This document shows, in pieces, positions 9,981 to 49,980 of a DNA stretch of 64,000 nucleotides. Location: positions 85,183,588 to 85,247,587 of the forward strand of contig CM066987.1 of the NCBI GenBank assembly GCA_033977485.1. The letters run 5' to 3'. The DNA is from Hydrangea macrophylla. Lineage: Eukaryota; Streptophyta; Magnoliopsida; Cornales; Hydrangeaceae. The translations under genes were made by a program, and so were the position numbers. Numbering within the stretch: position 1 is the stretch's first letter; each line of letters begins with the position of its first letter. The notes beneath the pieces are model-generated. The model saw only the letters and a program-made list of their open reading frames with translations. It did no database searches and had not been told where the DNA came from.

Positions 9981-10149
9981 ACTTTCATTATCTTAGGGGC
10001 TAAGATAAGGGTAGGTAGATCAATTAGGGATGGTGGAGCATGGTTTGCATGACCTAGGAGTAGTAAACACGTATACAAAAAACGGCATCGTTTGGTGCAT
10101 TCATTTGATCAAAGATTGAAATAGAATTTTGACTTAAAAATGAAAATTA

Positions 10150-12001: not shown

Positions 12002-12002
12002 T

Positions 12003-15000: not shown

Positions 15001-15040
15001 AGATAGTCTAGGTCTTAGATGTAGTTCTGAATGGTTATGA
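12003..15040 (+). pseudogene. Copia pol, broken
   Basis: Domains in copia order. Protease has WCIDSGAINHIC (Asp codon 12072-12074). The gag-pre-integrase segment is LWHMRLDHINL (about 12497). The integrase core has HTDVCRP and ITFTNNHSRYGYVYL (12670-12780). RT has MDVKTAFLNG (about 13895) and YVDD (about 14150). RNase H has TDSDFMSDKDSRKSTS and DSTTKAEYVAACEA (14660-14820). The reading changes frame around 12425, 12583 and 12940. Stops fall at 13653 (TAG), 13725 (TGA), 13948 and 14058, and further stops near 14411 and 14582. It would encode the enzymes for copying and integrating the element but is dead. Confidence 0.92.
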
Positions 15041-29149: not shown

Positions 29150-32096
29150 TGTGGATATCGCAGGTTGACTTACCCACAGCTTTTCAAAAATCTATTACTT
29201 AAAACAAAATGAGTCGCCACTTAATTTTTAAAGGGAAAATTAAGAAACCATTTTAAAAGCAAACTGATCTTTTAGAAACCAGAGATTAACTAGGTCCGGG
29301 GATTATGGAATGAGAGAGGAAGGAGCCCATCGGACTAAAACACCCTCTCTCATCCTATCTTGCGATAGGCCTCTACTCAACATCCTTTTAATCAAATTTA
29401 TTAATCTAAGCATGCCCTCAACTAATACATATATACATATACATCACAAAAAAAAATGTCCAAAGGGTGTAAAATTGCAATTGACAAAATATCATTCAAA
29501 AGCCACATAATTCAGGTAACAAGCGATATGATATGCAATAAGGCACAAGTGAACTTACCCGGGGTCCAGCAGCGATAATAAACGTGCAATGCATGCGATT
29601 AAATAAAAACCTAGGAAAAGAGTCTCTAATCCATATATACACATAAGGCAAATCTTAACTCTAAGGTGTCGCGCATAAGGTCGAAAATCAAATAAAAATT
29701 AAGGAATTTGATAAACTAGAGAGGGATTGAGAAATCGTACCTTAATAGCGCTACAAAACAAAGGGTTAGTTCACATGATATGTAAAACACGATGTTAGAA
29801 ATAACGATCCTAAATTTCTAGCTTACATCTATCTAATGTAATTAAATCCAAAGCAAATAAGTCTTAATTATAAGTGTCAAACCATATGGATGAATATGTA
29901 CATGGGCAAGGATAAACTATGAGATACTTTTGAACCTTGAATTCAAGCTCAACTAATCGTTATTAAAGCATGGTTTAAGCCTTAGGTCATAAGAAAGTCA
30001 TTTAGGCCCTTATTTACAAAGTAAGTCAAATGTGTCATAAAAACTCTAAAAATTGCAGAGAGCATACCAGAACTTAAAAGAAATAAAAAACACGTCTATT
30101 ATGGTTTGATGTTGATGAAATTTGGACACAAGATGCCTCTGTCAGTCTAGTTTCCAAATCAAAAAGAAAATCAAGGTTTCAACGGTTAGATCTCCGGGAA
30201 TATGGAAAACACTAGGCATCACTCAGCATCTTACAATCTCCTGTCCAGAATTCTTACACGATTTATTAAAAATAGTAAAAAAATCAGAATTGCTTTGTTC
30301 TTTTTAGGGTGACTTCCTAACACATTAATATACTTGGAAAAAATTATTTTGGGTCATAGAAACTTTGTTAGAACTCTGATTTAATTATTTCAAAAGAGTG
30401 TTGCTGTTCTGAAACTATTCTGAAATTCTGGACAGATTGTTGTTGCTTCACAAAAACCATGATCAAACCATTCTAAACATGAAACCACCTCAAAACAAAA
30501 ATTACAGTGGTAGAACAATGTGTTATTGACACTTTCCCGTTGGTTTCACTTGATTTCAACGGTTAGATTTCGAACTAAAAATCTTTGATCAAAAACAGTT
30601 TGTGGATTCACTGTTTTTTTATCTTGCTAGTTCAACTTTTATTTGGTAACTCCAACTATTAAACCATGAAGTTGGGTTTAAACCAAACCATTTCTCCTAC
30701 CCTTTGATGGCCATGGGAGACTACAAACCTTTGTTCTTCATAGATTTCAAATGAAATATGGATTGACTTCATGAAATCTCAAGATGATGAACCCAAACTA
30801 TAGAGATGAGTTTAGACCCACAATACTTTCTCCTACCACTTGATGGTCATTGGAGATGAAAGTGCAACTAATACTTGGTAGTTTTCAAAGGAATATGGAA
30901 ATGATTCCATGAGACACCAAGTTTAGAGGATCCAAGTCATGAACATGGACTTGGGTCCTATCTATGTGAAATAAAGTGATGATCAAGTTTTGACTCCCAT
31001 GTAGAGCATGAACTTACATGAGATTCAAAGGATCATGCTCAAGAGATCAATAGAGATATTTAAAAAAAATCTCCAAGACCTTTGAGAGAAGAAGATAGAC
31101 AAACAAAAGAAAGAAGTAAAAGACTACTAAGTTTAAAACAAAGAAAGATGATGAAATAGTCTAAGGTTTAAAGATTTCAAGGGAAGAAAGAGTAAGCTAA
31201 CAATCTAGGTTTAGAGGATCACCTCCAATTTATCCTCAAAGTTTTCTTTTGAAGATTATCCAAACTCTCCTTCAAGCTCTCCCAAAACTCTCCCTTTTCT
31301 TTCTCAAATGTGGGTGTAATGGAAGTGTTTTTTTTTTGTATATGTTTCCCCCCAAATGCCCTTTTTTTTTTCTCTTTGTCCTCTTTACAAACAAGATCCC
31401 TTCTCTTTTATAGGCAAAAACACCAGGTATTTTTGGTGAATTTCGGAGCAAAAAACAGGTGTAATTCTCTCATTTGGTGGTACAATGTGTACTTTCTGCA
31501 ATTAGACAGACTGCTGCCCAGCGCGGCAGTCAGAAACCTGCCGCGGCAGTACGTGAATGCCGTTGCGGCACTTAACATCTGCCGTAGCGGCACTTCGCAA
31601 GTGCCGCGCGGCTCTCATTGATTGCCGCGGCATTTAATTAATTGCCGTGTTTTCGTCAGTCTTACTTTATCAGTTTTTTGTTCTTATCTGCATGCGCATA
31701 CGTATTGCACTGCAAAATACAGACTTAAAAAGTGAACGGCAGTCAGAAACCTGTGGCGGCACTCGGGGAATGCCGCTGCGGCAATTTCTGACTGCCGCGC
31801 GGCACTCATCGAGTGCCGCGGAATCCGCCGTGTGCCGTTTTTTGGTGAGATTCCCCTTTTAGGTCTTTTCTCTTTTTGAAACAAATTATTTTTGAAGATC
31901 CTTTCCAAAAAATCATGTCTTTGTTCTGAATTCCCCTAAATACCTGGTATTTTTCCTCTTTCTGTGAAATTTTATCGCGTTTTAGGAGATTTTCTGAAGA
32001 GCTTGGAATACTTCAATTTTTCGGTCCTTGTCATCATCAGATACGGAGGTGACACTCTCCTAAATTCGACGTTAGGTCAAAATTGGGGTGTCTACA
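29150..32096 (-). mobile_element. Tat-B 3' LTR (2947 bp)
   Basis: TGTGGATATC...GTGTCTACA on the plus strand, that is TGTAGACACC to GATATCCACA in element sense. U3 holds the GC-rich hairpin clusters (31500-31640, 31735-31835), then a minus-strand TATA box near 31406-31414. The rest is long R/U5 with no coding frame. Confidence 0.95.
31500..31835. promoter_or_regulatory. GC-rich hairpin clusters, Tat-B 3' LTR U3
   Basis: Two blocks dense in TGCCG/CGGCA. Perfect 17-nt hairpins lie at 31589-31605 (GGCACTT-CGC-AAGTGCC) and 31801-31817 (GGCACTC-ATC-GAGTGCC). The 12-bp palindrome TGCCGCGCGGCA begins near 31793. In element sense they lie about 100-450 bp upstream of the TATA box. Confidence 0.8.
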
Positions 32097-32110
32097 GTTT
32101 GCCCCTCTTC
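32097..32110 (-). other. Tat-B polypurine tract
   Basis: Minus strand GAAGAGGGGCAAAC immediately before the 3' LTR start TGTAGACACC. Confidence 0.88.
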
Positions 32111-32547
32111 GGCAGAGCTTGTGGAGCAACGCGTACCACAAGTGAATGTCGAAGCCTGTGTGAAGACAAGCCTTTGACCAGACCGTCGAATTTAGGTAAA
32201 AACAAAATGCGTTGCAAAAAGAGAACATGCGCGGGGCAATGGTTCACGCTGGTCGTGCTCGATGATGAGCTGCCTTCGTATCCGTTCAGGAATCAGACCA
32301 AGACGTAGTTCGGGTCAAGGGTCAAACATACACAAGCGCGAATAGTCATACGGATGAATGCACTTATCTTATCGTGATGCACGTGCTCAAACAATCTGGT
32401 GCTTTCTGAATTAACCTGGTTATGTAAATGTCATGCTTATCATATTTTCCCTATGTATGACGCGCATTTCGTGGCGTGTTAGTCAGGGAAGATTATCTAT
32501 GCGAGAATCTGTCACAGGAGTCATGAGAGCGCTTTTGATTTGATCAC

Positions 32548-33556
32548 GAAGGTCAACGCAAATCCGTTGCGAGAACCGGGAATATAAATCCGTTATATTC
32601 TCAAACGAGGGTCAACGCAAATCCGTTGCGAGAACCGGGAATATAAATCCGTTATATTCTCAAAAAGAGGGTTATTCGCAAATCCGTTGCAAAAACCGGG
32701 AATATAAATCCGTTATATTCTCAAACGAGGGTTAATCGCAAGTCCATTGCGAAAACCGGGAATATAAGTCCGTTATATTCTCAAAAGAGGGTTAATCGCA
32801 AGTCCGTTGCGAAAACCGGGAATATAAGTCCGTTATATTCTCAAACGAGGGTTAATCGCAAGTCCGTTGCGAAAACCGGGAATATAAGTCCGTTATATTC
32901 TCAAAAGAGGGTTAATCGCAAGTCCGTTGCGAAAACCGGGAATATAAGTCCGTTATATTCTCAAAAGAGGGTTATTCGCAAATCCGTTGCGAAAACCGGG
33001 AATATAAATCCGTTATATTCTCAAAACGAGGGTTAATCGCAAGTCCGTTGCGAAAACCGGGAATATAAATCTGTTATATTCTCAAAAAAGAGGGTTAACG
33101 CAAGTCCGTTGCGAAAACCGGGAATATAAATCCGTTTTATATTCTCAAAAAGAGGGTTATTCGCAAATCCGTTGCGAAAACCGGGAATATAAATCCGTTA
33201 TATTCTCAAAAAGAGGGTTATTCGCAAGTCCGTTGCGAAAACCGGGAATATAAATCCGTTATATTCTCAAAAGGAGGGTTATTCGCAAGTCCGTTGCGAA
33301 AACCGGGAATATAAATCCGTTATATTCTCAAAAAGAGGGTTATTCGCAAATCCGTTGCGAAAACCGGGAATATAAATCCGTTATATTCTCAAAACGAGGG
33401 TTAATCGCAAGTCCGTTGCGAAAACCGGGAATATAAATCCGTTATATTCTCAAAAAAGAGGGTTAACGCAAGTCCGTTGCGAGAATCGGGAATATAAATC
33501 CGTTATATTCTCAAAAAGAGGGTTATTCGCAAATCCGTTGCGAAAACCGGGGAATA
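32548..33556. repeat. 60-bp tandem array with paired hairpins
   Basis: About 17 copies of a 59-62-bp unit. Each unit has two dyads. One has arms GAATATAA/TTATATTC and loop ATCCG or GTCCG (example 32580-32600). The other has arms TTCGCAA/TTGCGAA and the same loop (example 32975-32993). It lies in the 3' untranslated region, about 450 bp inside the PPT. Confidence 0.95.
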
Positions 33557-33859
33557 TGAGTTTGGGCCCGCAGGCTCGAATGTTGCGATTTTCAAAATTG
33601 GGAACCCAATGGGCCCAAATATCTTAATTTTCATAAATTGGGCGACCACGAGCTCAAACATCTCCAATTTTCAAAAAAATGGGGCACAGAATGCTCAAAT
33701 ATATATATATTTTTTTGAATTCCAAAATTTGTAGTCAAAGTGTACCTATAAAACGACCCTGAGGGCCAAAAGCGCAATGGGGGCAATTTTTGGGGCCTCA
33801 AATTCAATTTTTGGGACTTGATTTGAATTTTTGGGGGGAATGTAAATATCTTTGAACCG

Positions 33860-33998
33860 CCATAATCGCGGCACACGCGGATTTCTGCGGCAGTCCGTGA
33901 CTGCCGCGCGGCACTCACGGAGTGTCGTTGCGGCACTCGGCGAGTGCCGCGCGGCAGTTGACTGACTGCCGCGCACGGAAAAATGAGTGCCGCGTTGA
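33860..33998. promoter_or_regulatory. GC-rich hairpin cluster upstream of PMD gene
   Basis: Contains GGCACTC-GGC-GAGTGCC (33932-33948) and two CTGCCGCGCGGCA-type palindromes, in the same style as the LTR U3 clusters. It ends about 230 bp before the ATG at 34230. No clear TATA box follows. A promoter role is inference. Confidence 0.6.
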
Positions 33999-34229
33999 GG
34001 GGCAGTGGCTTTAAACCGCCGGGGTTCTCCTCCCATTCTCTCATTCTCTTCATCTCGAGATCTCTCTGGAGAAAATTTTCCCTCATTCTTTCTTTGCCTC
34101 TATATCGATCCACGACATTCACAGGTTAGTTTTGCTAGATCAGAGCTTGATTAAACTTGTTTATTTCAATGTTTTTTCCAATTTTTTTACTAATCTACGC
34201 GTGGATTCTCTCTTTTTCTCCGACAGATT

Positions 34230-36971
34230 ATGGCGAGTGGTTCAGGGCGCAAGAAGAGGGCTAGGTATACTGCCACGCATCACCCAGACGCCACGCTTTT
34301 ACTGAGGGATCCTGACGAGCATCTGTCGGCCCGCGCGTTCAAGCGCGAGGTAAACACTCTTATTCTCGTATTTCTCGTATTCCTTTCTCGCATTTCCTTT
34401 CCTGTGTGGATATATCGTAGGGTTGCCATAACTTTAGATACCCTGTTCCGAATGACATGCTCGTGGTGTCTTGAACGCCCCATTTCATGCCCCTTGCAAA
34501 GAAGTTTTTATTTCGAAAATAAACTGGATGTTATGTTGGAATTCTTTTGAACACTCATCCTTTTATTTGTTACTATTTTCATTTCTTTCAACTTTTAATT
34601 TTCATCAAAGGTTTTGAAAATCAAAAATTTCAAACATCCAATGTCCATGAATACACGATCCTGAACCTTCTCCTGTATCTTATTACACTTGTGAATTTCT
34701 CTGAATGTTCCAGACGCCCTTATTTTTGGATTCAGAACCTTATATATGCATGTATTTCAAAAATGCGGACAAACTACTTTTTCTTTTTCCTTTTCTTTTC
34801 GAAACCTTGCTATAACATTGAATGTTTTTCTTTTATTCATTTCAAACAATTGTGAAATCCTTTATGAACACTTCTGGACTTTTCATTCATTAATTATTTA
34901 TTCGCTGTTGTTGCTCTCTTCTTTATCTATCCCCTAACAAAAAACTTTTATTCTTTCCTTGCAGCTGCAGCCAAAGGTGTTGAAGGGGCACGGCAGCCTC
35001 GCCCACGGCCATGAGTGGTATACAGAGCTGAGCCCGACTGTGAGGGCTTTGGTGGATGCCGCAGGGTTTGGAGACTTCGTCAAGCTTTTGACGAAGAGCT
35101 CCAACGACCTTCAGCAGATACACGCACTGGCTGAGCGATGGTGGGATACTACGAGTAATTTCCACTTCTCTTTCGGCGAGATGACGTTGACCCCGCTGGA
35201 CTTCTCGATGATTACGGGGATTCCATTCGGGGGAGAGCCCCTGCGGCATCTCACGGACCAGGAGTGGGATCAGATGGAGCCGCTGCTAGGAGTGGTCCCG
35301 GAGGAGACCCTGGTTACAGCTCGGTGGTTCATGGATACCTTCCGGGGAAAACCCGGCTTTTCGGACGAGCAGATGGCCCACGGCTTTTTGATGTACGTGC
35401 TGGGGTGCTCTTTGTTGAGCACCAAGGGCGACCGGATTTCTGCTCCCCTGGTGGCGTCGCTGGAGCATCTGGATCGGGTCACCGAGTTTGATTGGGCTGG
35501 TACAGGTTTAGCTATCCTGTACAGTCACATGAGCGTCATCTCCCGGGGTAAGTCGACAGCTACCGGCGGGTATTGGAGAGCGTGGGAGGTACATATATAT
35601 TTTATTTATTTTTCACATTCCATCGCTTATTTACTCTCAGAAATTTATTTGCGTTGCGATACTAATTTCTCCTTTCTTTCTCTCTTTTTATTACAGATTT
35701 GGTCCCATGAGTATCTCCGCATGATGTCTCCTGAGACACGTGCTGCGGACGCCCTCGTCATGCCCCAGGGGCTGAAGTGGGCGAAGGACAGGGTCGGGCG
35801 GAAGACCGGGGCCCACGACTTTGTTTCGTTCAGGAATTTCCTGACGAACCTACGGGAGGAGCATGTACAGTGGCAGCCGTGGCTCAGGGCGCTACCCGAG
35901 GCTAGCGCGGGGATTCAGGCGTCGGCCGGGTATGACCCGATGAGACTGCTACTCGATGGTAGGTCAGAGGGCATGGCGTGGTACTTGGGAGAGAGGGTGA
36001 CCAGGCAGTCTATAGCGGCTCCCAGATTCTTTGTGCCGTTCCCTCCTCCCGAGTCTATGAGAGCTACAGACACTCTTCAGGGCGGCGACTACTCGGCTGC
36101 TCTAGCCGGCTTCGGTATCCACGGCTTCTTGGACGACCCTGACGGTTATGCGGCCTTCCGTGCCGCCAAGCTGATGCCGGACTTCCCGCTGATGGAAGTG
36201 ACTCGGGTGAGTAAATGATTCCTTTATTATTTTTGTGAGTTCTTCCTTTTACTCTTAACCCATGTTTTATTACTTTTGTTGGCAGCATGTCCCTGCTGCG
36301 CCCCGCCCCCCTGGCCTACCTGAGTGGGACTGGACCATGTCTACCGTCTCATTTGGCGAGCCCCATGTGACGACGGTCCCCCGACTCTCCCAGGGCACCC
36401 CTACCATTCCTATTCACTATGATCTTGTCCCGCGCGCTTACGCGGAGGAGGGCCTGGCGTACGCCCATAGCGTGCGACAGTGGGTTCTTGGGCGCGAGTG
36501 GATGGTAAGAAATTCATTCTCACCCCTATCTTTGATTGGAATTGTATCTCTTTTTACTGATCTTTATTTCTGTTTCTTGTTTTCAGGCCGAGGGAGCTCG
36601 AGCGACCGCCGCGGTTCAGTCGAGGGCCCTGGTATGATCTCTACCCTTTCCATATTCTTAGCATCCCGAATTTCTTTTCAATGATTTTCATGGACTCATC
36701 CCTTCTCTTCCAGATGGAGGAGAACAGAGTCTTATCTCAGCAGGTGGGGCAGCTCCAGCATCGGCTTCAGCAGTTTGGCATCTCTTTCAGCGATGCCCCC
36801 GGAGGTAGCGGTGCTGGGCGTGGCGGAGGCGTTGGCGAGGGCACTAGTGGTGGCAGGGGTCGAGGCAGCGGGCGTGGAGAGAGTGGAGGAGGCAGCGGGA
36901 CTGAGTCAGAGGAGGAGCCTCTCAGACGCACGACTCGCCAGACTCGCGGCCGGGGTCGGGGTCGGAGTTGA
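34230..36971 (+). CDS. Plant mobile domain protein gene, six exons, antisense to Tat-B
   Basis: Exons by GT-AG junctions: 34230-34349, 34965-35588, 35697-36206, 36286-36504, 36587-36631, 36714-36971; all introns are phase 0 and the product is 591 residues. Residues 1-40 hold a basic GRKKRAR motif that may be a nuclear signal. Residues about 60-420 form the plant mobile domain: ALAERWWDTTSNFHFSFGEM, then LTPLDFSMITGIPFGG, and YWRAWE joined to IWSHEYL across intron 2, which supports that junction. Exon 6 starts with a short heptad-like stretch (EENRVLSQQVGQLQHRLQQF) and ends in a Gly/Arg-rich tail. Host PMD proteins of the MAIN/MAIL type act in the nucleus in gene and transposon silencing; PMD domains also occur in transposable elements. 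No stop or frameshift is seen, so it may be functional. Its role for the element is unknown. Confidence 0.88.
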
Positions 36972-37575
36972 TCCTGCTTATATTTTTGCTTTCTTTTGAG
37001 AGGATTCTTTTATTGTACATATTTGGGTGGATGACTGTATAAATATACAAATATGCTTTATTTTGATGGCTGCTTCCTTTTATTATGCTTTCTGCTTTAT
37101 TCACCGTATGTATGACCATAGCTTGGTCCAAATTTTGCCGTATGTGGGACCATGGCTTGGTCCCGATTTTATTTCTATCTTTGAATGCTTCTGCTTCTTT
37201 TACTTATTTGATATATACAAATGAATGAAATGAATGAATGAATGTATGAATTTGCACGTGCTGCATGATGCGCACGTTTTATTGCTTCTTAATTAATTTT
37301 CTGTTTGCAGGTGGGCTGATCGTGTTACAAACAGATTCTGGCCAATGAAAAACTCAGAAAGGCACTCGGTTAAGCCTCCACGGCACTCAACGAATGCCGC
37401 AACGGCAGTCAGTGAATGCCGTGCGGCACTCACGAACTGCCGCGCGGCACTTCATGGAGTGCCGCTGTACTTTATCGAGTGCCGCGATCTAGTGGGCAGC
37501 TCTTTTTCCCTACTTATACCCCTCCTCTTCTAACACTCCGCAAAACATCTCTCTCTCTTTCCACCCTCCTTTCAA
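36972..37575 (+). promoter_or_regulatory. Intergenic region with GC-rich hairpin cluster
   Basis: 3' flank of the PMD gene, then an AATG microsatellite (about 37220-37247). A GC-rich cluster at 37358-37488 (CTGCCGCGCGGCACTT, and a GGCACTT...GAGTGCC-like hairpin) follows, then a TATA-like TACTTATACC at 37511-37520, 56 bp before the next ATG. The layout, cluster then TATA then gene, repeats that of the LTRs in mirror orientation. Confidence 0.6.
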
Positions 37576-38667
37576 ATGGCCCCCATTAGCTCCCAAACTC
37601 TCTTCCCATGGATGGATACCCTCTCAGGTATTGAGAGGCTCAATTTTGAATGCTTCAGATTGAATGATCTCTTCTCTTTCCGGCACATGAGCTTGAACGA
37701 GGGCTTACTGCGAGCTGCTATTCAGTGTTGGGACCCTGCTCTCAACGTCTTTCGTTTCGGCTTTCAGGAGATTTGTCCTTTGTTCGAGGAATTTAGCGCT
37801 ATTCTCCACACTGATCCTTTTGCTGAACTGGCGGTTCCTCAGATTCAAGTTGGGTATGTCCGCGACTTGGCCACTCTTCTCCACATATCTCGAAATGCGG
37901 CAAGTTCTTTTGTTCATGATGGGCAGATCGACTTCGAACGCCTTTCTTCCGTTTATGCTCCTATAGGGGACCCTTATGATGGTGAGCATCAGATCATCCG
38001 GCGTAGTGCCTTGTCGGTTGCTATGCTCTCTTACTTTCTCTTCCAGTCATCTTCCGACATTCTCATATCCATCGCCTGCGGTTTGCGGGAGATGAAGAGT
38101 GCTGTTATGCTAGTCCTTGGTGAAACTCTGATCGGGCTGGGCCATGCTCATGCTACTGGGGTTATGTTATCTGCCGGGGCACCTTTTGTTCTGCAAGTTT
38201 GGCTCATGGAGCGCCTTGATCTCTTCATTCACCCCTCGCATCTTCGTGGGCCGTTTTCTTATGATCGCATGGAAATCCATTGCTTATTCCAATCTGCCGA
38301 TGCATGGCTCGGTTGGCTCCAAGGCCTCTCTTCTGGTGACATTTGCTGGATCTGCCCTCAGTGGACTCATCGTTCTGTTGCTGTACGCCTCCCTGGGCGT
38401 CCTGGCATCTGGCTGCCGGGTTTAAACGCTACGACTTTCTACATTCCTGACCGAGTTGTCCGTCAGTTCGGACTTTTGCAAGATACTACTGAATCTGTGG
38501 CTGCTGATTTCACCAGGGGTTCTACTCTGCGTCCTCCCATTGTGAAGGCTTTCATAGAGGCTTGGTCGAGTAGGATGGCTGCTCCGTGCTCGAGGGTCCC
38601 TGCTTCGATTGTGCCCACTGCCCAGTATCTTCTGGAGATCCAGGCCTTGGTTGTGAGACAGACTTGA
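37576..38667 (+). CDS. Second antisense gene of Tat-B, PMD/DUF7745-like
   Basis: Uninterrupted 363-codon frame from ATG at 37576 to TGA at 38667, codon-biased and richer in G+C than its flanks. The start is supported by an 'aaATGGCC' context and an upstream TATA-like box. Residues about 30-80 (FRLNDLFSFRHMSLNEGLL, QCWDPALNVFRFG, EICPLFEEFSAIL) resemble a family annotated in plants as DUF7745 and related to the plant mobile domain ('W-D-P ... F-x-F ... E-x-x-P-x-x-E-E'). A later IPDRVVRQFGLLQ segment also fits. No catalytic motif, signal peptide or membrane span is visible. It is transcribed toward the pol stop at 39200, leaving 530 bp between the convergent genes. The family call is from memory; the biochemical function is unknown. 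Confidence 0.78.
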   Translation: MAPISSQTLFPWMDTLSGIERLNFECFRLNDLFSFRHMSLNEGLLRAAIQCWDPALNVFRFGFQEICPLFEEFSAILHTDPFAELAVPQIQVGYVRDLATLLHISRNAASSFVHDGQIDFERLSSVYAPIGDPYDGEHQIIRRSALSVAMLSYFLFQSSSDILISIACGLREMKSAVMLVLGETLIGLGHAHATGVMLSAGAPFVLQVWLMERLDLFIHPSHLRGPFSYDRMEIHCLFQSADAWLGWLQGLSSGDICWICPQWTHRSVAVRLPGRPGIWLPGLNATTFYIPDRVVRQFGLLQDTTESVAADFTRGSTLRPPIVKAFIEAWSSRMAAPCSRVPASIVPTAQYLLEIQALVVRQT

Positions 38668-39199
38668 TGAGACACGTGCATAATAAAACAGACGAAAACA
38701 GAGAAAAGTTGTCCCTTTCACAAAACTTTCTGACGGACCCTGCCTACTCTTTTACGCTTTTCGAATGTGATTGACTGATGTTGTTATCTTTAGGGAAATT
38801 TCTAGCATGTTTAATCAAAGCGCTCAACCTTTCGATTAATCTTTTATGAAGAATTCTCCTTTTAATGTTTTTATTCGGCTCCGTACTTCGCTTTTGTTTT
38901 CCACTCATCCTTTTCCATGAATTCTTATTTGTTTCTTTATAGTACTTATTCTGACAGCCAGGTGACCTGAAGGATGGTTTTATTTCTGGGTTCTTCGGCT
39001 AGCAAACGAAGTTTGCCCCTGGTTTTAGGGCTTCGAAGTGATTCCGGGCAAACGCCAGTTTGCCCCTAGTTTAGCACCTTTTTTTTTTTTTTTTTTTTTT
39101 TTTTGAAATGACCGAACCAAGTTGGTTGCCTACGTATCCCCTAGCGGGAATCAGGTCAAGCGTAGTTCATCAAGGTAGGAGGCTTTGAAAGAAATGGTT
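38668..39199. other. Convergent 3' flanks of antisense gene and pol
   Basis: Noncoding. Contains a 'tttgcccct' repeat pair (39010-39070), a T run of about 28 (39077-39104) and one CTACGTATCC/ACGTAGTTC dyad (39129-39170). The poly-T on the plus strand would be poly-A in pol-sense RNA. Confidence 0.75.
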
Positions 39200-42100
39200 T
39201 CAAGCAAAGTATTTCTTGAGGCGATCGAGGTTAATTGGCTGTTTAAATTCAACCCCGTCCAGGTCCATGAGATAAGCCACTCCTCCCGAAAGGAGGGTCT
39301 TAATGATGTATGGTCCGACCCAGTTGGGTTTGAATTTTCCTCTGGGGTCATAAACGGGCACTTTTAGTTCTTTGAGGACCAGGTCACCCTCAGCAAGCTT
39401 CCTTGGGCGGACCTTTTTGTTGAAAGCACGAGCTATCCTCTTCTGGTATCCCCGAGTATGGTTTATTGCGGTCAACCTCTTTTCATCAAGCAGCATCAAT
39501 TCCTCATATCTTCCTTGTATCCATTCTGACTCCGTCACTTCACATTCTGTCAAGACTCTGAGAGAGGGTATTTCCACCTCGACTGGAAGGACTGCTTCCA
39601 TCCCGTAGACCAACGAGTATGGCGTAGCGCCCGTTGAAGTCCTTACTGACGTCCGGTACCCCCATAAGGCAAATGGCAGCTTCTCATGCCAATCCTTATA
39701 TGTATCTGTCGTCTTCCCCAAGATTGCTTTAACATTCTTATTCGCTGCCTCTACTGCTCCATTCGTCTGGGGCCTATACGGGGATGACTGATGGCGAGTG
39801 ATTTTATATTTCTCTAAGAGCGGGATAACTTCCCCCTGGAAATGGCTACCATGATCGGAGATAAACTCGTTCGGGACTCCATATCTGCAGATTATGTTCT
39901 TCTCAATGAAACTCACCACATCTTTGGCTTTCAAGGTCGCATACGAGGCTGCTTCTACCCATTTTGTGAAATAATCGATCGCCACGATTATATACCGGTG
40001 CCCATTGGAAGCCTTTGGGACTATCTCACCAATGATATCAATCCCCCATACAGAAAATGGCCAAGGGGTGGTCATGCTATAGAGGTGCGACGGTGGGGTG
40101 TGCATCAAATTTGCATGGATCTGACACTTGTGACACCTTCTAACATATTCACAACAGTCTTTGTCCAAGGTCGTCCAATAGTACCCTTGTCGGATGATCT
40201 TCTTTGCCAGCATGTGCCCGTTCATATGGGGCCCGCATACTCCCTCATGTATTTCCTCCATCATTCTCTTAGCTTCCCTCCCATATAAACACTCCAAATT
40301 ATACCCGGTATAGGACTTCTTCCATAGTTTATCTGCGTAGATCACGAATTGAGCGGCAAATCGTCGTATCGCCTTCTTGTCCTTTTCTGAGGCTCCTTTG
40401 GGGTATTCTCCTTCTTTAATGAGCTTCCATACGTCCACATACCAAGGCATTTCATCTTCTCTCTCTATGGCTGCGATCATCTCAAATGACGGTTGATTCC
40501 TTACTTCTATGGACAGCGGAATCATGACAATTTTGGAAGGGATTTGGATCATCGAGGCTAAGGTAGCCAGAGAATCGGCTAGTTGGTTTTCTTCACGAGG
40601 GAGGTAGTAGAAGGAAATCTTTTGGAATTGCGCTTTCAGACTTTCTAGATAGTCATGGTAAGGTCTCAACTTCTCATGTTTTACCCTCCAATCTCCTCGG
40701 ACCTGGGATATGATCAAGTTGGAATCTCCGAAGACATCAACCCGTCCGACTTTCAAAGCCAAGGCCGCTTCCATTCCAATTATGCAGGCTTCGTACTCTG
40801 CGGTATTGTTGGTTGAGTCGTATTTAAGTTTGACAGCCAATGGGGTAGGGACCCCGTCTGGTGCCATGAGAATGATTCCGACCCCGTAACCTAACTGGTT
40901 GGCTGCTCCATCAAAGTACATTTTCCACAACTCTTCCTTCACTTCCATTATTCCCTCATCTGGGAACTTGAAGTCTCCCTTATCCTCAGATTCTACAGCG
41001 AGGTCGGCTAGAAATTCGGCGACGGCCCTTCCTTTTACAGACTTGGAGGTGACATATCTGATATCGAACTCAGCCAGCATCATGGTCCAACGGGAAATCC
41101 TACTGGTCAAGACGGGTTTTTTGAATAGGTATTTTAACGGGTCCATCCGGGAAATTAGGATCACGGGGAAGGCTAACATATAGTGGCGGAGGCGACGGGT
41201 ACACCAAACCAAGGCCCAACAGGCCTTCTCCAAGGGCGAATACTTTAACTCATATCCGACCATTCTCTTACTCAGGTAGTAAATGGCTTTCTCCGCGTGC
41301 CCTTCCTCTCCTTCTTGGGCCAACATACATCCCATTGAATCCTCGGATACAGAAAGATAAAGTAACAGGGGTCTCCCAGGTGAAGGTGGTGACAAGACAG
41401 GTGGGTTCTGGAGGTAGGCTTTGATTTTGTCGAAGGCCTGTTGACACGGGGCATCCCATTTGAATCTCTCTCCCTTTCTGAGTAGTTTAAAAAGTGGGTC
41501 GCAGGTCAAGGTGAGTTTGGAAATGAAGCGGCTGATGAACTGTATTCTCCCCAAGAATCCCCTCAGTTCTTTCTCGTTTTTTGGTGGCTGCATTTCGGTT
41601 ATTGCTTTTATCTTGGTAGGATCCACCTCTATTCCCCTCTGAGTAATAAGGAAACCTAATAACTTCCCGGTGGTGACTCCGAATGTTCACTTTTGCGGGT
41701 TTAGCCTCATTTTGAACTCCCTCAATCTCTCAAAGAATTTTCTCAAAGCCTCAAGGTGCCCTCCCCTCTTTTTGGATTTCACAATCATATCATCTACATA
41801 CACCTCCACCTCCTTGTGGATCATATCGTGTAGCAAAGTGGTGGCAGCCCTTTGATAGGTTGCACCTGCATTCTTAAGTCCGAATGGCATGACCCTATAG
41901 CAATATGTCCCCCATGGAGTGATGAAAGTGGTTTTCTCCCTATCCTCGGGCGCCATGAGGATTTGGTTATATCCAGAGAATCCATCCATGAAAGATAGAA
42001 GCTCGTGCCCTGCAGTGTTGTCCACCAACACATCGATGTGGGGCAACGGGAAATCATCCTTAGGGCTTGCCTTGTTTAAATCTCGAAAATCAATGCAAAC

Positions 42101-42643
42101 CCTAACACGACCATCTTTTTTTGGGACAGGTACAATGTTGGCAATCCACTCAGGGTACTCGGTGACCATCAAGAATCCAGCTTTTAATTGCTTTTCAACT
42201 TCCTCTTTCACTTTAAGTGCCCATTCGGGCCTCATTCGCCTCAACTTTTGTTTTACGAGTTTCGAATTAGGAAAGAGGGGGATGTGGTGTTGGACTATTT
42301 TTGGATCGATACCTGGCATATCATTATAAGACCATGCAAAAACATCTTTGAATTCATTTAATAGACTGATTAGTTCTTTGCTTTCTTTATTGCTAAGTGT
42401 AGAGCCGACGAAGACATTTTGAGGATTGTTCTCATTTCCAAGATTAATTGTTAGGGTGTCCTCAATGATTTTACATGCAGATTCTTTTTCTTTTTCAATT
42501 AGTTTTTGCAGTTCAATAGGTATTTCATGATCATCACATTCATCACATTCATTAAGCGCGTTCGAGTAGGCAGAATCAGTCATACTTTCATTGATTTTCT
42601 TTGGAGTGATTACAACGGACATAGAAATTGAAAGACGCCTCAT
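39200..42643 (-). CDS. Tat-B pol (RT, two RNase H domains, integrase) with one internal stop
   Basis: One frame of about 1147 codons, same frame as gag-pro, broken only by TGA at 41687-41689, where related sequence has a cysteine codon (…LNPQK-stop-TFGVT). RT carries IDFRDLNKASP, FMDGFSGYNQ and YVDD (near 41800). The native RNase H (LLLYLSVSEDSMGCML) has lost its first Asp. It is followed by a second RNase H of the Tat type (MYFDGAANQ, NNTAEYEACI, VFGDSNLII, ENQLADSLA; about 40950-40560). The integrase has HMNGH...CHKC, then catalytic Asp in WGIDIIG, Asp in ISDHGSHF and Glu in GAVEAANKN. No chromodomain. It makes and integrates cDNA in the virus-like particle and nucleus. The GTG at 41626 is not a real start. 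If the TGA is genuine, this copy is dead or needs readthrough. Confidence 0.9.
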
Positions 42644-45600
42644 TTAGGCCATTACAGACTCTGGGTGTGGGGGGAACCTATCACTAGACTCAAAAACCCA
42701 CTCTTTCTTGTGCTCTCCTCCCAGGCCAGTAATAAAGTATTCTTCCGGACCCCCTGTCTTGGTCATTTTCTCCATCTCTTCTTCCTCAGCCTTTTCTTCC
42801 TCACCTTCTTCACTTTCGGCGGCTTCCTCCACTATGCCCTCGACGTATTCACCTTTGGTCTTCCAGGGATCCTCCTTCACGACTTCTGCGTTTCCTTCGC
42901 CTAACAGATCTTTCATGACAGAACCGTCCAGCATACCAACCCAGTCCTTGGCAGCAACAGATTTTTCAGGTACTTGCAAAAATGGGTCTTTGTACCCAGA
43001 AAATTCATGGGAGAAGAAGATCTCGAACCCCGGCTTCATGCATTTGTCTTTTTGGTCCATCCATGGTTCTGGGAAACCACAGAATGGGAAATCCTCTCCT
43101 TCCTTCACAAAATACCCGTTGAGGGTCTTCAAGTAAGGATCCAGCGGTGCGTTGACGGCCTTCTTCTTGGTTCTCAGCTCCTTCTTTGTTGGTTGATACC
43201 CGAGACCGTGAGTGTGAGTTTGAGTAGGGATTCTTGGGGCCTCCGGCAGGCCTTGAAGGTTCTTCCCCAACCCCAATCCTGGAAAGAAACCCATCTTCTT
43301 CATGATTCCGGCGACGACTGGACTAGCATATTGATCAAAATGGGGCGGTAGGGACTCTCCCGACTTTCCTTCTTCTATCGCGCCGATGAACTCGAATCCT
43401 CCCATTTTTGCTTCTTCTTCTTGTAGCTGTAGCTCTAGGACCGGTGCGCTTGACGATGCTTCAGATGATCGAACCCAACTGTCTCCGAGGATATCACAGA
43501 CTTTGTTTTCCCAGACATACTGAACTTTTTGATGAATCGTCGATGGGATAGCGCCCAAACTGTCCAACCAAGGTCTTCCCAGCAGCAGATTGAAAGAAGC
43601 GGGGATATCGATGATTTGGAACTCAGCTTCCTTGTCCATTGATCTGATAGCAAGGTTAAGAAAGATGATGCCCATGACTGTCCTTTGGGTGTTATCATAT
43701 GCCCGGACCTTTTGTTGAGACGGCACAAAAGAAGATTCATCCAAGCCCATTCGTTTGGCTGTGCGGAAAGGACACACATTAAGAGCAGACCCGTTGTCAA
43801 CGAGACAAGCGGGTACGGTGTTCCCCAAACATTCAACAGTGATGTACAAAGGCTTATTGAGCATGGGCCCTCCCGGTGGTAAGTCATTTGATGAGAAAGC
43901 AATAGCCAAAGTCGGGATTTTATTGATCAGCCCTACAAGGTCTTCCGGGGTGGTGTCGATAGACACGTCAGACTGATTAAGGGCGTCTAGGTCCGCCTGC
44001 CTATGACGTTTGGAGGCAACCAGCAATCCCCAAACAGTAATGTTAGCCTGAGTCTTCTTCATCTGCTTGAGGACTCTATCCTCTTCTTCTTCCTCGTTCA
44101 TCTTTCCTTTCCCTTTCTCCAGCTCCCTCCCCGGGTGATCTTCTTCTAATTCATGTGGCTTGAAGTGCCTACCAGACCGAGTCAAGTGGTCAATTTCTTC
44201 TTTTGCCCAGATATCGTCGGTTTCTGAAACGGTCTTTGGGCCCTCTTCTACCTCTTCGTCGCTTTGGTACCATAGATCATCTTCCCCTACCAGGCCTATG
44301 TTCCGATCATTGCTTTCTTGGACCCACCAATCTGACTGCTCCGTTGCTTCATTCTCCCATATCCCTGGCTGGCTTCCAATCATACAGATTTCCAGATTTT
44401 CTGGTAACTGATAGAACTTCCTTGGTTCCCCGACCTTGGTGATTAGCTTGGACGGATCGAATGTCACTTCTTCTACTCCCAAGAAGTAAAGACCCCGCGG
44501 CGGCGGTACGGCACGATGGTTTGGCAGTGGATTCTTGGTGACATTGGGAGCCTTGACAGGTGGCTCGGATATCACTTTGTTGTCAATGAGGTCCTGTATG
44601 TCATGCCTTAACCTCATGCACCGATCGGTCGAGTGGCCCTTTTGTTGGTGATATTTGCAGTAGAGATCTCCTTTGAAGTACGGCGGGAGTGGACTCGGCG
44701 GGGGTCGAGGTTCCAGCTGGCGGAGATGCCCTTTTGCTAACAGCCTGTCGAGGGCGGTTGATAATGATACTCCCAAATCTGAAAACTTCCTCATTGGCTT
44801 GTCTTCCCCTCCCCTTGGATGACTTCTGGTGATATCGAATTTCTTCTCCGGCTCGCTAAGCGCATTGACATCGGTGGGGCCAGAGTGACCCCCCGAATGC
44901 CCTCCATTCGACCCATAACTAGGCCTTCGATATCGGTTCTGTGGTTCTTCCTTCTTGATTGTTTCTTCTTGGATTGCATCTTCGATTCTCGTCCCTACAT
45001 CGAATACCTCAGCAAAGGTATTGATTGACTGGAATCTCATCTTCTCCTGATAAACTGGCTGTAGATTTTTCATCAACATTCGGATTTGGTCCTTCTCGGA
45101 CGGCCTTTGTACCATTTTCGCAGCTTTTCCTCTCCAACGGCTTAAGTACTCAGCAAATGATTCTTTGTTCCCCTGCCTGGTTGTTTCCAAATCTCGGACA
45201 GTAACATCCAAGTCCTGATTGTATTCGTACTGTGCCACAAATGCCTTAATCATCTCTTCCCATACTCTGGTTTTGCTTGGTTCGAGAGTAAGGTACCACG
45301 ATAGGGCAGCTCCCGTTAAGGTTTGTTGAAACAGGACAGCCATCATGGTAGTGCTCAACCCACTAGGCTGAAAAGCTCCTATGCACATTCGGACATGACT
45401 GCGGGGGTTGCCTGTGCCATCAAATTTATCAAAGACGGGCATTTTAAAACCGGCCGGCAGCGTCTCATGGACTCCGTCGTACAACCCTTCCAATTCCAAC
45501 AGATAGGTATCCACCCCTTGCGCTTTGCGCATTACCCTCTCTAATTTTTCTATCTTCTCGGTCAGCAGCTTCTCCTTCTCATCTTTTTCCCTGTCTCTGT

Positions 45601-45859
45601 TGGCTCTCAGTGCATCATTCCAATGTGCCTCTTGGTCGTCGAACCAATCTCCGTCTCCTCCTCCCATAGGCGGGTCTATAATGGGTGGAATTACATGCGG
45701 CGGCAGTCGGCGATTCAGCTCCTCTATCATTCCCATCATTCGGTTCATGTTTTCAGCCTGTCTTCGCATCTGTTCTGCCTGCTGCTCAACTAGTACCCTC
45801 AGCCCGGTCATCTCTTCATTGTTTCTCTCTTCAGCCATGTCGACGTATCCTCTTCTCAC
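42644..45859 (-). CDS. Tat-B Gag-protease polyprotein with G-patch-like segment
   Basis: 1071 codons with no break. ATG is at 45859; a second ATG seven codons later (MAEERNNEE) may be the true start. Order: coiled-coil-like N terminus; capsid-type region (KFDGTGNPRSH, LTGAALSWYL, QGNKESFAEYLSRW) about residues 140-260; atypical zinc knuckle YCKYHQQKGHSTDRC near residue 405; acidic linker; retropepsin with CLVDNGSALNVCP (Asp about 688; DNG instead of the usual DSG/DTG) and FNLLLGRPWL. A G-patch-like stretch (IMKKMGFFPGLGLGKNLQG) follows near residues 850-870, then a Glu-rich tail. Gag packages RNA and the protease cleaves the polyprotein. It ends TAA at 42646-42644, immediately followed by ATG in the same frame as pol. 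Confidence 0.92.
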   Translation of the reverse strand: MRRGYVDMAEERNNEEMTGLRVLVEQQAEQMRRQAENMNRMMGMIEELNRRLPPHVIPPIIDPPMGGGDGDWFDDQEAHWNDALRANRDREKDEKEKLLTEKIEKLERVMRKAQGVDTYLLELEGLYDGVHETLPAGFKMPVFDKFDGTGNPRSHVRMCIGAFQPSGLSTTMMAVLFQQTLTGAALSWYLTLEPSKTRVWEEMIKAFVAQYEYNQDLDVTVRDLETTRQGNKESFAEYLSRWRGKAAKMVQRPSEKDQIRMLMKNLQPVYQEKMRFQSINTFAEVFDVGTRIEDAIQEETIKKEEPQNRYRRPSYGSNGGHSGGHSGPTDVNALSEPEKKFDITRSHPRGGEDKPMRKFSDLGVSLSTALDRLLAKGHLRQLEPRPPPSPLPPYFKGDLYCKYHQQKGHSTDRCMRLRHDIQDLIDNKVISEPPVKAPNVTKNPLPNHRAVPPPRGLYFLGVEEVTFDPSKLITKVGEPRKFYQLPENLEICMIGSQPGIWENEATEQSDWWVQESNDRNIGLVGEDDLWYQSDEEVEEGPKTVSETDDIWAKEEIDHLTRSGRHFKPHELEEDHPGRELEKGKGKMNEEEEEDRVLKQMKKTQANITVWGLLVASKRHRQADLDALNQSDVSIDTTPEDLVGLINKIPTLAIAFSSNDLPPGGPMLNKPLYITVECLGNTVPACLVDNGSALNVCPFRTAKRMGLDESSFVPSQQKVRAYDNTQRTVMGIIFLNLAIRSMDKEAEFQIIDIPASFNLLLGRPWLDSLGAIPSTIHQKVQYVWENKVCDILGDSWVRSSEASSSAPVLELQLQEEEAKMGGFEFIGAIEEGKSGESLPPHFDQYASPVVAGIMKKMGFFPGLGLGKNLQGLPEAPRIPTQTHTHGLGYQPTKKELRTKKKAVNAPLDPYLKTLNGYFVKEGEDFPFCGFPEPWMDQKDKCMKPGFEIFFSHEFSGYKDPFLQVPEKSVAAKDWVGMLDGSVMKDLLGEGNAEVVKEDPWKTKGEYVEGIVEEAAESEEGEEEKAEEEEMEKMTKTGGPEEYFITGLGGEHKKEWVFESSDRFPPHPESVMA

Positions 45860-46984
45860 TAACCTTGCTGTAGGACCTCTAAACCACCCTTGGTTTGCTA
45901 TTTTTGCTCCTACAATAAATTTTGGAAATTTCTTTTTAGAAAAACCTTTTTATCTTTATCTTAGCAAAACCTTTATTTTGAAAGTCATGCGGATGCAATG
46001 CATGTGTGTGTGTGTGCCTACTCTATATGCAAAAGGAAGGAAAATTCTAGTCCTAACACATAAAGCACATAATCACATAGAATCCTTACCCATGTCAAGT
46101 ACGATGATTTCTCCATTCATTGCGATCCTCTTTACCCTTCGATTTTAGCGTTTTCGAAATTTATTCGAAAAGCATTTCTGATGAATTCTTTTAGAAAACA
46201 ATTTTCAAAAATTTTGGATCGCGCTTTTCAAAAAAGTGATTGGTTTGAAACTCTTGTTTTGGAAAGTACCTTAGCGGATGAATAACCTTGGTTTGGCTTT
46301 TAATCAAAAAGGTGAACTGCCAGAATTTTTGGAAAAGTGAAAAAAAACTTTGGAATAGAGATGGCAAAATCTGTTTATTTTCAAAGATGGATTTAAAATT
46401 CTTTTGGGTAGAAGGATCACATGACAGGATTATCACCGTACTTTCCATGAATTTGGATGCATACAAGGTCAATGATGCTTAACTAAACATGATATAGGAA
46501 GTATAATCTTATAATCAAGATTCGGCATGTCCTCCAAATGTCGTGTAACACGTGGAGAAATTGCTAAAAGGTGATTAAAAGATTATTCATCTTTCATCAA
46601 GCAAGTATCGTCATCATCTCAAGTAATCCCTTCTGGGCATACAAAACTTCCTAGCACATAACCCTAATCAAGAATTGATTTCCTAAATTTGATAGGTTCT
46701 ATAGAAACTACTATGCAAAGGCTGGGTTTTGGTCAAATAAGGGACCCTTGACACACACCCGATAGGATGCTTCATATACCAAAACATGGTACGAGATCAA
46801 GGGTGATCACACAGTCCCATGATGACTTGACCGACCGGGTTGCCCCGAGCCTTCAAGGTCATAGTTCCGTGCAATCGACTGGCTGGACATGCAAGTGAAA
46901 TGCAACAGGCACACAAAGATTAATTAATTTGATTAAAAGGACATTTTTCAAGTCTAATCCTCAAGCGAACCCAAAATCAGAATT
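45860..46984 (-). other. Tat-B leader
   Basis: AT-rich, aligning with the Tat-A leader. No coding frame of note. Holds the sequence between primer site and gag where packaging signals are expected. Confidence 0.75.
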
Positions 46985-47034
46985 CTGGTCTGCGAAACCA
47001 GAGATTCTGGGTTCGATCCCCAGCAGAGTCGCCA
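46985..47034 (-). other. Extended primer-binding site, tRNA 27-76 copy
   Basis: Plus strand contains exactly 50 nt that fold as a tRNA 3' part: 17-nt anticodon arm (stem CTGGT/ACCAG, loop CTGCGAA), 5-nt variable loop, 17-nt T arm (loop TTCGATC), 7-nt acceptor strand, discriminator G, CCA. The 18-nt core in element sense is TGGCGACTCTGCTGGGGA, the type assigned to tRNA-Arg in Tat/Ogre elements. The anticodon formally reads GCG (Arg box). It lies three bases inside the 5' LTR. Confidence 0.9.
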
Positions 47035-47037
47035 GAT

Positions 47038-49980
47038 TGTGGATATCGCAGGTTGACTTACCCACAGCTTTTCAAAAATCTATTACTTAAAACAAAATGA
47101 GTCGCCACTTAATTTTTAAAGGGAAAATTAAGAAACCATTTTAAAAGCAAACTGATCTTTTAGAAACCAGAGATTAACTAGGTCCGGGGATTATGGATGA
47201 GAGAGGAAGGAGCCCATCGGACTAAAACACCCTCTCTCATCCTATCTTGCGATAGGCCTCTACTCAACATCCTTTTAATCAAATTTATTAATCTAAGCAT
47301 GCCCTCAACTAATACATATATACATATACATCACAAAAAAAAATGTCCAAAGGGTGTAAAATTGCAATTGACAAAATATCATTCAAAAGCCACATAATTC
47401 AGGTAACAAGCGATATGATATGCAATAGGGCACAAGTGAACTTACCCGGGGTCCAGCAGCGATAATAAACGTGCAATGCATGCGATTAAATAAAAACCTA
47501 GGAAAAGAGTCTCTAATCCATATATACACATAAGGCAAATCTTAACTCTAAGGTGTCGCGCATAAGGTCGAAAATCAAATAAAAATTAAGGAATTTGATA
47601 AACTAGAGAGGGATTGAGAAATCGTACCTTAATAGCGCTACAAAACAAAGGGTTAGTTCACATGATATGTAAAACACGATGTTAGAAATAACGATCCTAA
47701 ATTTCTAGCTTACATCTACCTAATGTAATTAAATCCAAAGCAAATAAGTCTTAATTATAAGTGTCAAACCATATGGATGAATATGTACATGGGCAAGGAT
47801 AAACTATGAGATACTTTTGAACCTTGAATTCAAGCTCAACTAATCGTTATTAAAGCATGGTTTAAGCCTTAGGTCATAAGAAAGTCATTTAGGCCCTTAT
47901 TTACAAAGTAAGTCAAATGTGTCATAAAAACTCTAAAAATTGCAGAGAGCATACCAGAACTTAAAAGAAATAAAAAACACGTCTCTTATGGTTTGATGTT
48001 GATGAAATTTGGACACAAGATGCCTCTGTCAGTGTAGTTTCCAAATCAAAAAGAAAATCAAGGTTTCAACGGTTAGATCTCCGGGAATATGGAAAACACT
48101 AGACATCACTCAGCATCTTACAATCTCCTGTCCAGAATTCTTACACGATTTATTAAAAATAGTAAAAAAATCAGAATTGCTTTGTTCTTTTTAGGGTGAC
48201 TTCCTAACACATTAATCTACTTGTAAAAAATTATTTTGGGTCATAGAAACTTTGTTAGAACTCTGATTTAATTATTTCAAAAGAGTGTTGCTGTTCTGAA
48301 ACTATTCTGAAATTCTGGACAGATTGTTGTTGCTTCACAAAAACCATGATCAAACCATTCTAAACATGAAACCACCTCAAAACAAAAATTACAGTGGTAG
48401 AACAATGTGTTATTGACACTTTCCCGTTGGTTTCACTTGATTTCAACGGTTAGATTTCGAACTAAAAATCTTTGATCAAAAACAGTTTGTGGATTCACTG
48501 TTTTTTTATCTTGCTAGTTCAACTTTTATTTGGTAACTCCAACTATTAAACCATGAAGTTGGGTTTAAACCAAACCATTTCTCCTACCCTTTGATGGCCA
48601 TGGGAGACTACAAACCTTTGTTCTTCATAGATTTCAAATGAAATATGGATTGACTTCATGAAATCTCAAGATGATGAATCCAAACTATAGAGATGAGTTT
48701 AGACCCACAATACTTTCTCCTACCACTTGATGGTCATTGGAGATGAAAGTGCAACTAATACTTGGTAGTTTTCAAAGGAATATGGAAATGATTCCATGAG
48801 ACACCAAGTTTAGAGGATCCAAGTCATGAACATGGACTTGGGTCCTATCTATGTGAAATAAAGTGATGATCAAGTTTTGACTCCCATGTAGAGCATGAAC
48901 TTACATGAGATTCAAAGGATCATGCTCAAGAGATCAATAGAGATATTTAAAAAAAATCTCCAAGACCTTTGAGAGAAGAAGATAGACAAACAAAAGAAAG
49001 AAGTAAAAGACTACTAAGTTTAAAACAAAGAAAGATGATGAAATAGTCTAAGGTTTAAAGATTTCAAGGGAAGAAAGAGTAAGCTAACAATCTAGGTTTA
49101 GAGGATCACCTCCAATTTATCCTCAAAGTTTTCTTTTGAAGATTATCCAAACTCTCCTTCAAGCTCTCCCAAAACTCTCCCTTTTCTTTCTCAAATGTGG
49201 GTGTAATGGAAGTGTTTTTTTTTGTATATGTTTCCCCCCAAATGCCCTTTTTTTTTCTCTTTGTCCTCTTTACAAACAAGATCCCTTCTCTTTTATAGGC
49301 AAAAACACCAGGTATTTTTGGTGAATTTCGGAGCAAAAAACAGGTGTAATCTCTCATTTGGTGGTACAATGTGTACTTTCTGCAATTAGACAGACTGCTG
49401 CCCAGCGCGGCAGTCAGAAACCTGCCGCGGCAGTACGTGAATGCCGTTGCGGCACTTAACATCTGCCGTAGCGGCACTTCGCAAGTGCCGCGCGGCTCTC
49501 ATTGATTGCCGCGGCATTTAATTAATTGCCGTGTTTTCGTCAGTCTTACTTTATCAGTTTTTTGTTCTTATCTGCAAGCGCATACGTATTGCACTGCAAA
49601 ATACAGACTTAAAAAGTGAACGGCAGTCAAAAACCTGTGGCGGCACTCGGGGAATGCCGCTGCGGCAGTTTCTGACTGCCGCGCGGCACTCATCGAGTGC
49701 CGCGGAATCCGCCGTGTGCCGTTTTTTGGTGAGATTCCCCTTTTAGGTCTTTTCTCTTTTTGAAACAAATTATTTTTGAAGATCCTTTCCAAAAAATCAT
49801 GTCTTTGTTCTGAATTCCCCTAAATACCTGGTATTTTTCCTCTTTCTGTGAAATTTTATCGCGTTTTAGGAGATTTTCTGAAGAGCTTGGAATACTTCAA
49901 TTTTTCGGTCCTTGTCATCATCGGATACGGAGGTGACTCTCTCCTAAATTCGACGTTAGGTCAAAATTGGGGTGTCTACA
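47038..49980 (-). mobile_element. Tat-B 5' LTR (2943 bp)
   Basis: Nearly identical to 29150-32096. Differences counted by eye include a 1-bp deletion near 47193, T-run length changes near 49215 and 49250, and about 14 substitutions. TATA box on the minus strand at 49291-49300 (GCCTATAAAA); GC-rich hairpin clusters at 49390-49520 and 49620-49715 lie upstream in element sense. Confidence 0.95.

Follow-up and report, generated by a model that had tools for sequence, protein, structure and literature searches.

An intron-bearing gene for a plant mobile domain (PMD) protein is carried on the antisense strand of an Ogre/Tat LTR retrotransposon of Hydrangea macrophylla, and the substitution pattern shows purifying selection on its coding sequence in the copies compared. 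Together with a second antisense gene, which encodes a DUF7745 protein, it may form a pair of maintained accessory nuclear regulators of the Ogre/Tat family, perhaps acting via palindromic arrays, a reading in which our confidence is evenly balanced. The window that we analyzed, meaning the whole stretch of 64,000 nucleotides, is C6:85183588-85247587; the genome searched was that of H. macrophylla (2.22 Gb in 19 contigs) and all copy comparisons are drawn from this one genome.

Results

Structure of the PMD gene and its product

The PMD gene (34230-36971, plus strand) is composed of six coding exons, each a multiple of 3, and is antisense to gag-pol, being located between the pol frame (end at 39200, minus strand) and the LTR at 29150-32096 (Table 1). 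All five coding introns are of the GT-AG type and of phase 0, with T-rich acceptors, and the six exons join into a 591-aa frame without a stop. This is the structure described in the initial annotation, whose coordinates are exact, and the continuous PMD protein that it expected is found as well: the 591-aa product matches the PF10536 profile with E 7.9e-33 and 114.5 bits, above the curated cut-off of 34.9, which places it in the PMD family. The match extends over residues 74-320 and profile positions 1-254 of 347, so that the final quarter of the profile is unmatched. In the protein, a basic start (RKKRAR) is followed by the PMD core and a Gly/Arg-rich tail. Gypsy-only PMD-A clades were described previously (PMC5418596), and the gene studied here is likewise carried by a gypsy element.

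On the 5' side of the gene there is a TATA-like box (TTTAAA at 34010), a CT-rich leader and a probable 5'UTR intron. The borders of the latter are kept across the copies described below (donor GTTAGT in 30/30, acceptor ending in CAG in 30/30), and the intron at 34125-34226 is likely to be real. Combined with the array that precedes them, these features may act as the gene's own antisense promoter and would yield a spliced mRNA. Normal read-through of intron 2 as coding sequence was considered and rejected, since 5 of 30 copies have an intron 2 of 107 or 109 nt, a length that would break the frame. AlphaFold2, run on exons 2-3 read through intron 2 (16 sequences), gave a pLDDT of 35.5. A sequence search of the PDB returned a pair of engineered repeat proteins, whose best E was 1e-7 and of which no stretch passed by itself, and Gly-rich chance matches, and a search of viral contigs for relatives confirmed none.

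Table 1. Features of the retrotransposon and its antisense genes, in window coordinates.
Feature	Position	Strand	Remarks
Whole LTR retrotransposon, Ogre/Tat type, 20,831 bp	29150..49980	-	CACAC flanking both ends
5' LTR	47038..49980	-	palindromic array 49408-49722; TATAAAA 49297-49291
3' LTR	29150..32096	-	palindromic array about 31524-31840
Tandem repeats, unit about 60-61 bp	32541..33581		between 3' LTR and PMD promoter
Palindromic array, 5' of PMD gene	33885..33992		ends 17 nt before TTTAAA at 34010
Probable 5'UTR intron, PMD gene	34125..34226	+	borders kept across copies
PMD exon 1	34230..34349	+	joined frame
PMD exon 2	34965..35588	+	joined frame
PMD exon 3	35697..36206	+	first residue = PMD profile position 181
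PMD exon 4	36286..36504	+	joined frame
PMD exon 5	36587..36631	+	joined frame
PMD exon 6, Gly/Arg-rich tail and stop	36714..36971	+	joined frame
Palindromic array, 5' of DUF7745 gene	37361..37484		about 30 nt before TATA-like stretch 37515
Second antisense gene, DUF7745 (PF24924), one exon, 363 aa	37576..38667	+	profile match
pol (RT, RNase H, second RNase H, integrase)	39200..42643	-	in-frame stop within RT, 41687-41689
gag frame (Retrotrans_gag, G-patch)	42644..45949	-	frame and profile matches

The host element

The element is bounded by direct repeats (29150-32096 and 47038-49980) that are 99.4% identical over 2947 bp and have the TG...CA ends of an LTR pair, and the target duplication CACAC is found on both of its sides. 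Insertion is recent because the K2P distance of the LTR pair is only 0.0044 (0.44%; 7 transitions and 6 transversions in 2943), a dating that covers the window copy only. The primer binding site looks like a match to tRNA-Arg, which we take to be an Ogre trait. In the profile search, the minus-strand order is gag, RT, RNase H, second RNase H and integrase, with pol profile spans of 102-206 (RT_RNaseH), 262-375 (RVT_3), 471-523 (H2C2) and 542-638 (rve). The second RNase H between RNase H and integrase assigns the element to the Tat lineage (Ogre/Retand), as the initial annotation had it, and the same domain order is given for angiosperm Tat elements (PMC6317226). An extra PMD ORF, present here by profile match, was reported in 57% of Ogre elements (PMC6317226).

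One in-frame stop (42644-42646, minus strand) separates the gag and pol frames, at the place where an intron is the Ogre trait. In-frame stops are thus seen at this border and within RT (41687-41689, minus strand), while the antisense genes are open; because of these two stops the window copy is probably not autonomous. The gag frame (42647-45949, minus strand) ends in a G-patch match (E 6.8e-5, 23.1 bits, cut-off 22). Elsewhere in the window, 3152-10258 holds remnants of a related element (pieces of gag, leader and LTR, at 71-86%) and an array-like stretch at 10158-10258, and frames at 11946-15040 and 27837-28415 resemble, as judged by eye, Ty1/copia and gypsy integrase pieces.

Introns through transposition

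A 36-base pattern spanning the exon2/intron2 border was matched, with up to 3 mismatches, at 122 places in the genome, and GT adjoins the exon in each of the 100 listed of these 122 matches. For the joined exon2/exon3 junction, a pattern of the same length gave 0 matches in a whole-genome search. Three copies, the window copy among them, have different sequences adjoining their left LTR ends and are thus separate intron-bearing insertions. It is therefore well supported by these searches that the introns survive transposition, as was initially claimed, since the gene is antisense to the genomic RNA: the PMD splice sites sit on the opposite strand, so the genomic RNA should stay unspliced there, and reverse transcription would copy the gene with its introns, as expected from known biology. 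The converse case is known from intron reporters, in which an intron placed in the element's own sense orientation is removed by splicing in the course of the element's life cycle (PMC12786077).

The initial annotation had also suggested that a spliced gene can be mobilised whole. The gene is indeed intact inside the element, but it was not picked up by one element and is resident in a large family. Capture of a host PMD gene by chance between LTRs, or one event of gene transduction, would fit its intron-bearing, gene-like structure and the existence of other PMD genes in the genome. Such an origin is extremely improbable in view of the 122 places that carry the exon2/intron2 border and of at least five LTR-PMD-LTR triads with the same spacing among the matches listed; moreover, transduced genes occur in one or a few copies (PMC7264820), which is not the case here. 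The 122 border copies rule out a single capture or a chance nest, and an old capture at the root of the element family is possible.

Copies of the PMD gene and selection

For the comparison of copies, 40 of 3445 candidates from an exon-2 similarity search were scored (96-100% identical) and the best 30 were fetched with the whole gene (L009-L038, where L009 is the window itself). They are close relatives picked by exon-2 similarity, and the numbers below describe constraint and not independent trials. Of the 30 copies, 29 have GT/AG at all five introns, and all 30 have the same donor and acceptor hexamers at introns 1-4. The frame is open from ATG to stop in 23/30; of the seven broken copies, four have a stop, two a frameshift and one a last exon that is cut short. 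Variable sites at codon positions 1, 2 and 3 number 42, 42 and 99, of 592 each (L019 left out). Over all exons of the 23 open copies dN/dS is 0.17, a value not near 1 and in keeping with the intact gene initially described, and it is 0.195 in exons 3-5, which had no part in choosing the copies. Mean divergence reaches 10% in intron 1 and 12% just downstream. The exons differ less (exons 1-3, 1-2%; exon 4, 3%; exon 6, 6%), and introns 2 (1.1%) and 3 (0.2%) are no more divergent than exons 2 and 3. In nine copies intron 1 is 14-34% different from the window, and its borders are unchanged.

One explanation for the intact frames is that the gene is dispensable to the element and is still whole only through the youth of the insertions. 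The LTR difference of only 0.44% in the window, the close relationship of the copies and the broken state of 7/30 fit this idea, which we nevertheless find improbable: it is opposed by the dN/dS of 0.17 with its third-position excess, by the much larger divergence of intron 1 and the downstream stretch than of the exons (introns 2 and 3 excepted), and by DUF7745 alleles at dS 0.6 with dN 0.05-0.06. Another hypothesis is that the product that matters is antisense RNA, forming dsRNA with the genomic RNA, and not a protein. Such element transcripts could form dsRNA (PMC7264820), and yet constraint at the codon level and kept splice sites make this explanation quite improbable.

The divergence along the copies is uneven. 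Compared with the window, the copies L014/L053 and L015/L054 differ by about 1% across most PMD exon bins (7% at 36.3 kb), by 6-22% from about 36.9 to 39.1 kb, and by 1-2% again in pol. The 14-34% difference of intron 1 in nine copies, given above, stands next to bins that differ by no more than 6.5%. Sharp jumps of this kind are located at 36870-39150 and 34270-34860 (compared in L010-L018 and L049-L057). They look as if they came from template switching between related elements, and because divergence jumps up and back along the copies, elements of this family must exchange segments.

The second antisense gene

The 363-aa frame of the second antisense gene matches PF24924 (DUF7745) with 34.7 bits (cut-off 26). 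Against the PMD profile it scores 24.9 bits, under the 34.9 cut-off, and hhalign of DUF7745 with PMD gives an E of 0.0019 but a probability of only 14%. Its stretches LQVW..ER and Y.P.R...QFG..QD align with PMD, and the protein is probably a distant PMD relative. Ten DUF7745 copy stretches were fetched, among which 6 are open, 3 are broken and 1 is non-homologous. Two open copies stand at dS 0.6 from the window with dN 0.05-0.06, giving a dN/dS of 0.09-0.10, a sign of strong constraint between these alleles.

Palindromic promoter arrays

The arrays consist of palindromic GCGGCA-TGCCGC units, and many of their half-sites form pairs, each a palindrome some 21 bp long. The element holds 42 half-sites (CGGCA[ACG]T or A[CGT]TGCCG), compared with a Markov mean of 4.6 and a maximum of 11 in 50 runs, and 41 of the 42 fall in four arrays: in both LTRs, 5' of the PMD gene and 5' of the DUF7745 gene. 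The distance from the array end to the TATA-like box is about 17 (PMD), 30 (DUF7745) and 110 nt (LTR). Each PMD copy has 6-9 half-sites, kept in all 30, and the 8 DUF7745 stretches counted have 7-8. Two other LTRs were examined; L061 kept its array and L059 lost half of it. A 30-base array pattern gave 1174 matches in the genome, and its reversed control gave 0. Among the first 100 matches listed, 94 were entered and make up 82 arrays, 39 of them with a partner within 25 kb. The pair distances among the matches listed are 1.7-2.2 or 15.7-18.2 kb in 25 of 27 cases, as in the window, and at least five full LTR-PMD-LTR array triads keep the same spacing.

Tests of constraint on the arrays are mixed, with two of three in favour. 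In the DUF7745 array, 1/40 half-site columns vary as opposed to 15/80 spacer columns (p 0.009; p 0.02 with the window left out). Between the window element and an older LTR relative (58-61 kb), 78/90 half-site bases are identical vs 151/231 in spacers (p 1e-4); this relative, at 58058-61059, is in the opposite orientation, is 72-79% identical and keeps 8 half-site matches. The column count of the PMD array (11/45 half-site vs 13/69 spacer columns variable, p 0.83) shows no constraint, and mean diversity there is 0.016 in half-sites vs 0.040 in spacers, with 8 of 113 circular shifts as low.

These results bear on what the arrays may be for. They could be sites of a host factor, or hairpin or methylation sites spread by recombination, in either case unlinked to the antisense proteins, and to this we give close to an even chance. 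LTR elements in general use host promoter factors, segment exchange among the copies is plain, and the column count in the PMD array shows no constraint. The location of arrays 5' of all three TATA-like boxes, with constraint in two of three tests, speaks against arrays that have no role, and does not single out the binder. To our knowledge PMD is not known to bind DNA, which counts against a mechanism through the arrays.

Another way in which the PMD protein might serve the element, put forward in the initial annotation and also in PMC8616336, is as a decoy or counter-defence that would compete with host MAIN/MAIL PMD proteins or their partner PP7L. The PF10536 match fits such a role, as do the silencing of TEs by the host proteins MAIN and MAIL1 and their binding to PP7L (PMC7156037). 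It is opposed by the host DOWN motif (CATGCAGTTT, MORC1 promoter, PMC9899485), which is unlike the arrays, and on balance competition of this kind seems unlikely. A link between the arrays and the DOWN motif was itself considered and rejected, the sequences being unlike.

An intron site common to other PMD genes

Three other PMD genes of this genome (L039, L042 and L044), with about 26-31% identity to the element PMD, have a phase-0 intron at the same residue as intron 2. L042 and L044 are near-identical, and the exons of L039 and L042 end at PMD profile position 180. Over the 10 loci compared (L039-L048), the intron is present in 3 and absent in 1 (L046), and 6 were not settled by the pattern used. 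The long uninterrupted PMD frames L001-L003 run straight through the site. Intron 1 has a similar placement in other PMD genes, where exact alignment is impossible. L040 and L043 adjoin MULE transposase domains. At C13:8652593-8965236 there is a cluster of long PMD frames (L001, L002, L004 and L005) of 445-794 aa, two with an internal stop, in which L001 and L002 are without an intron at the common site. Judging from the shared position, descent of the element PMD and of the other PMD genes from one intron-bearing ancestor would be the likeliest explanation, and parallel intron gain at one site is possible.

Discussion

Our proposal is that the PMD gene would be a resident functional accessory gene of the Ogre/Tat family. 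We suggest this because splice sites are kept in 29/30 copies, frames are open in 23/30 and dN/dS is 0.17; because the codon-position pattern is 42/42/99 and the intron 1-4 hexamers are identical in 30/30; because intron 1 diverges by 14-34% in nine copies between unchanged borders; and because 122 unspliced borders are found vs 0 joined junctions, with three different left flanks. The DUF7745 gene is included because its dN/dS is about 0.1 at dS 0.6. The two proteins would act together in the nucleus, where they may regulate the element or release it from silencing, with the arrays 5' of the three promoters as the most likely route; a role of the arrays is suggested because 41/42 half-sites are promoter-proximal and those of the DUF7745 array and the LTR are better kept than spacers. 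Against the proposal stand the half-site columns of the PMD array, which vary as often as its spacers, the L059 LTR that lacks half its array, the choice of copies as close relatives by exon 2, and a window copy with an in-frame RT stop.

This kind of gene, a PMD extra gene in gypsy/Ogre elements, is known, and among the atypical domains of gypsy consensus sequences PMD is the commonest (PMC9289625). Extra genes in antisense orientation were also described in LTR elements (PMC7264820, PMC11963269), and counter-silencing by an element PMD was already put forward (PMC8616336). What is new is the spliced antisense structure, the intron 2 site common with other PMD genes, the DUF7745 gene and the arrays at three promoters, the last three of which go beyond the initial annotation; in the literature searched, which covered few subscription papers, we found neither a spliced antisense PMD gene nor these arrays described.

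In PMD-carrying Ogre elements and in the PMD-A clades, as here, a PF10536 protein is the extra gene of an angiosperm Tat-lineage element (PMC6317226, PMC5418596). The available parts of these sources make no mention of a multi-exon antisense gene, whereas here there are five coding introns, a DUF7745 gene and arrays. Antisense extra genes such as that of Grande (PMC11963269) are similar in position and orientation, and Grande also has its own promoter and a nuclear protein; they belong to other protein families, and the word 'intron' is absent from the available text of PMC11963269. Introns also persist in the spliced LTR elements Ogre and EVADE, but there they serve subgenomic RNAs of the element, while here they lie on the opposite strand (PMC12786077). 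VANC of VANDAL21 (PMC5735166) would be comparable in its way of working only, as an element-encoded protein with dense short-motif arrays in non-coding parts. VANDAL21 is a DNA transposon with an unrelated motif and protein. Host MAIN/MAIL and MULE-borne PMD proteins share the PMD domain, with an intron at the same site in L039, L042 and L044 (PMC7156037, PMC5418596). According to these sources they lie outside LTR elements, and L039, L042 and L044 may be host or MULE genes.

The structure described here shows a way for a gene with introns to remain functional within an LTR element, namely in antisense orientation to the genomic RNA. Surveys that look for one long ORF (250 codons in PMC6317226) would catch only single exons of such genes. 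The arrays common to the promoters turn a vague idea of counter-silencing into a question of binding. It is conceivable, though rather unlikely, that the two antisense proteins of the PMD superfamily, one of them the product of an ancestrally spliced gene, recognise the arrays in the LTR and in their own promoters and would relieve silencing or adjust output in trans in all array-bearing copies. If this is true, they would be the retrotransposon equivalent of VANC, and the intron site common to PMD genes would mean that PMD already had introns when it passed into retrotransposons or out of them. PMC5418596 left open whether gypsy elements gave PMD to hosts or received it from them, and the intron position that the element PMD has in common with other PMD genes offers a lead on the direction of this transfer.
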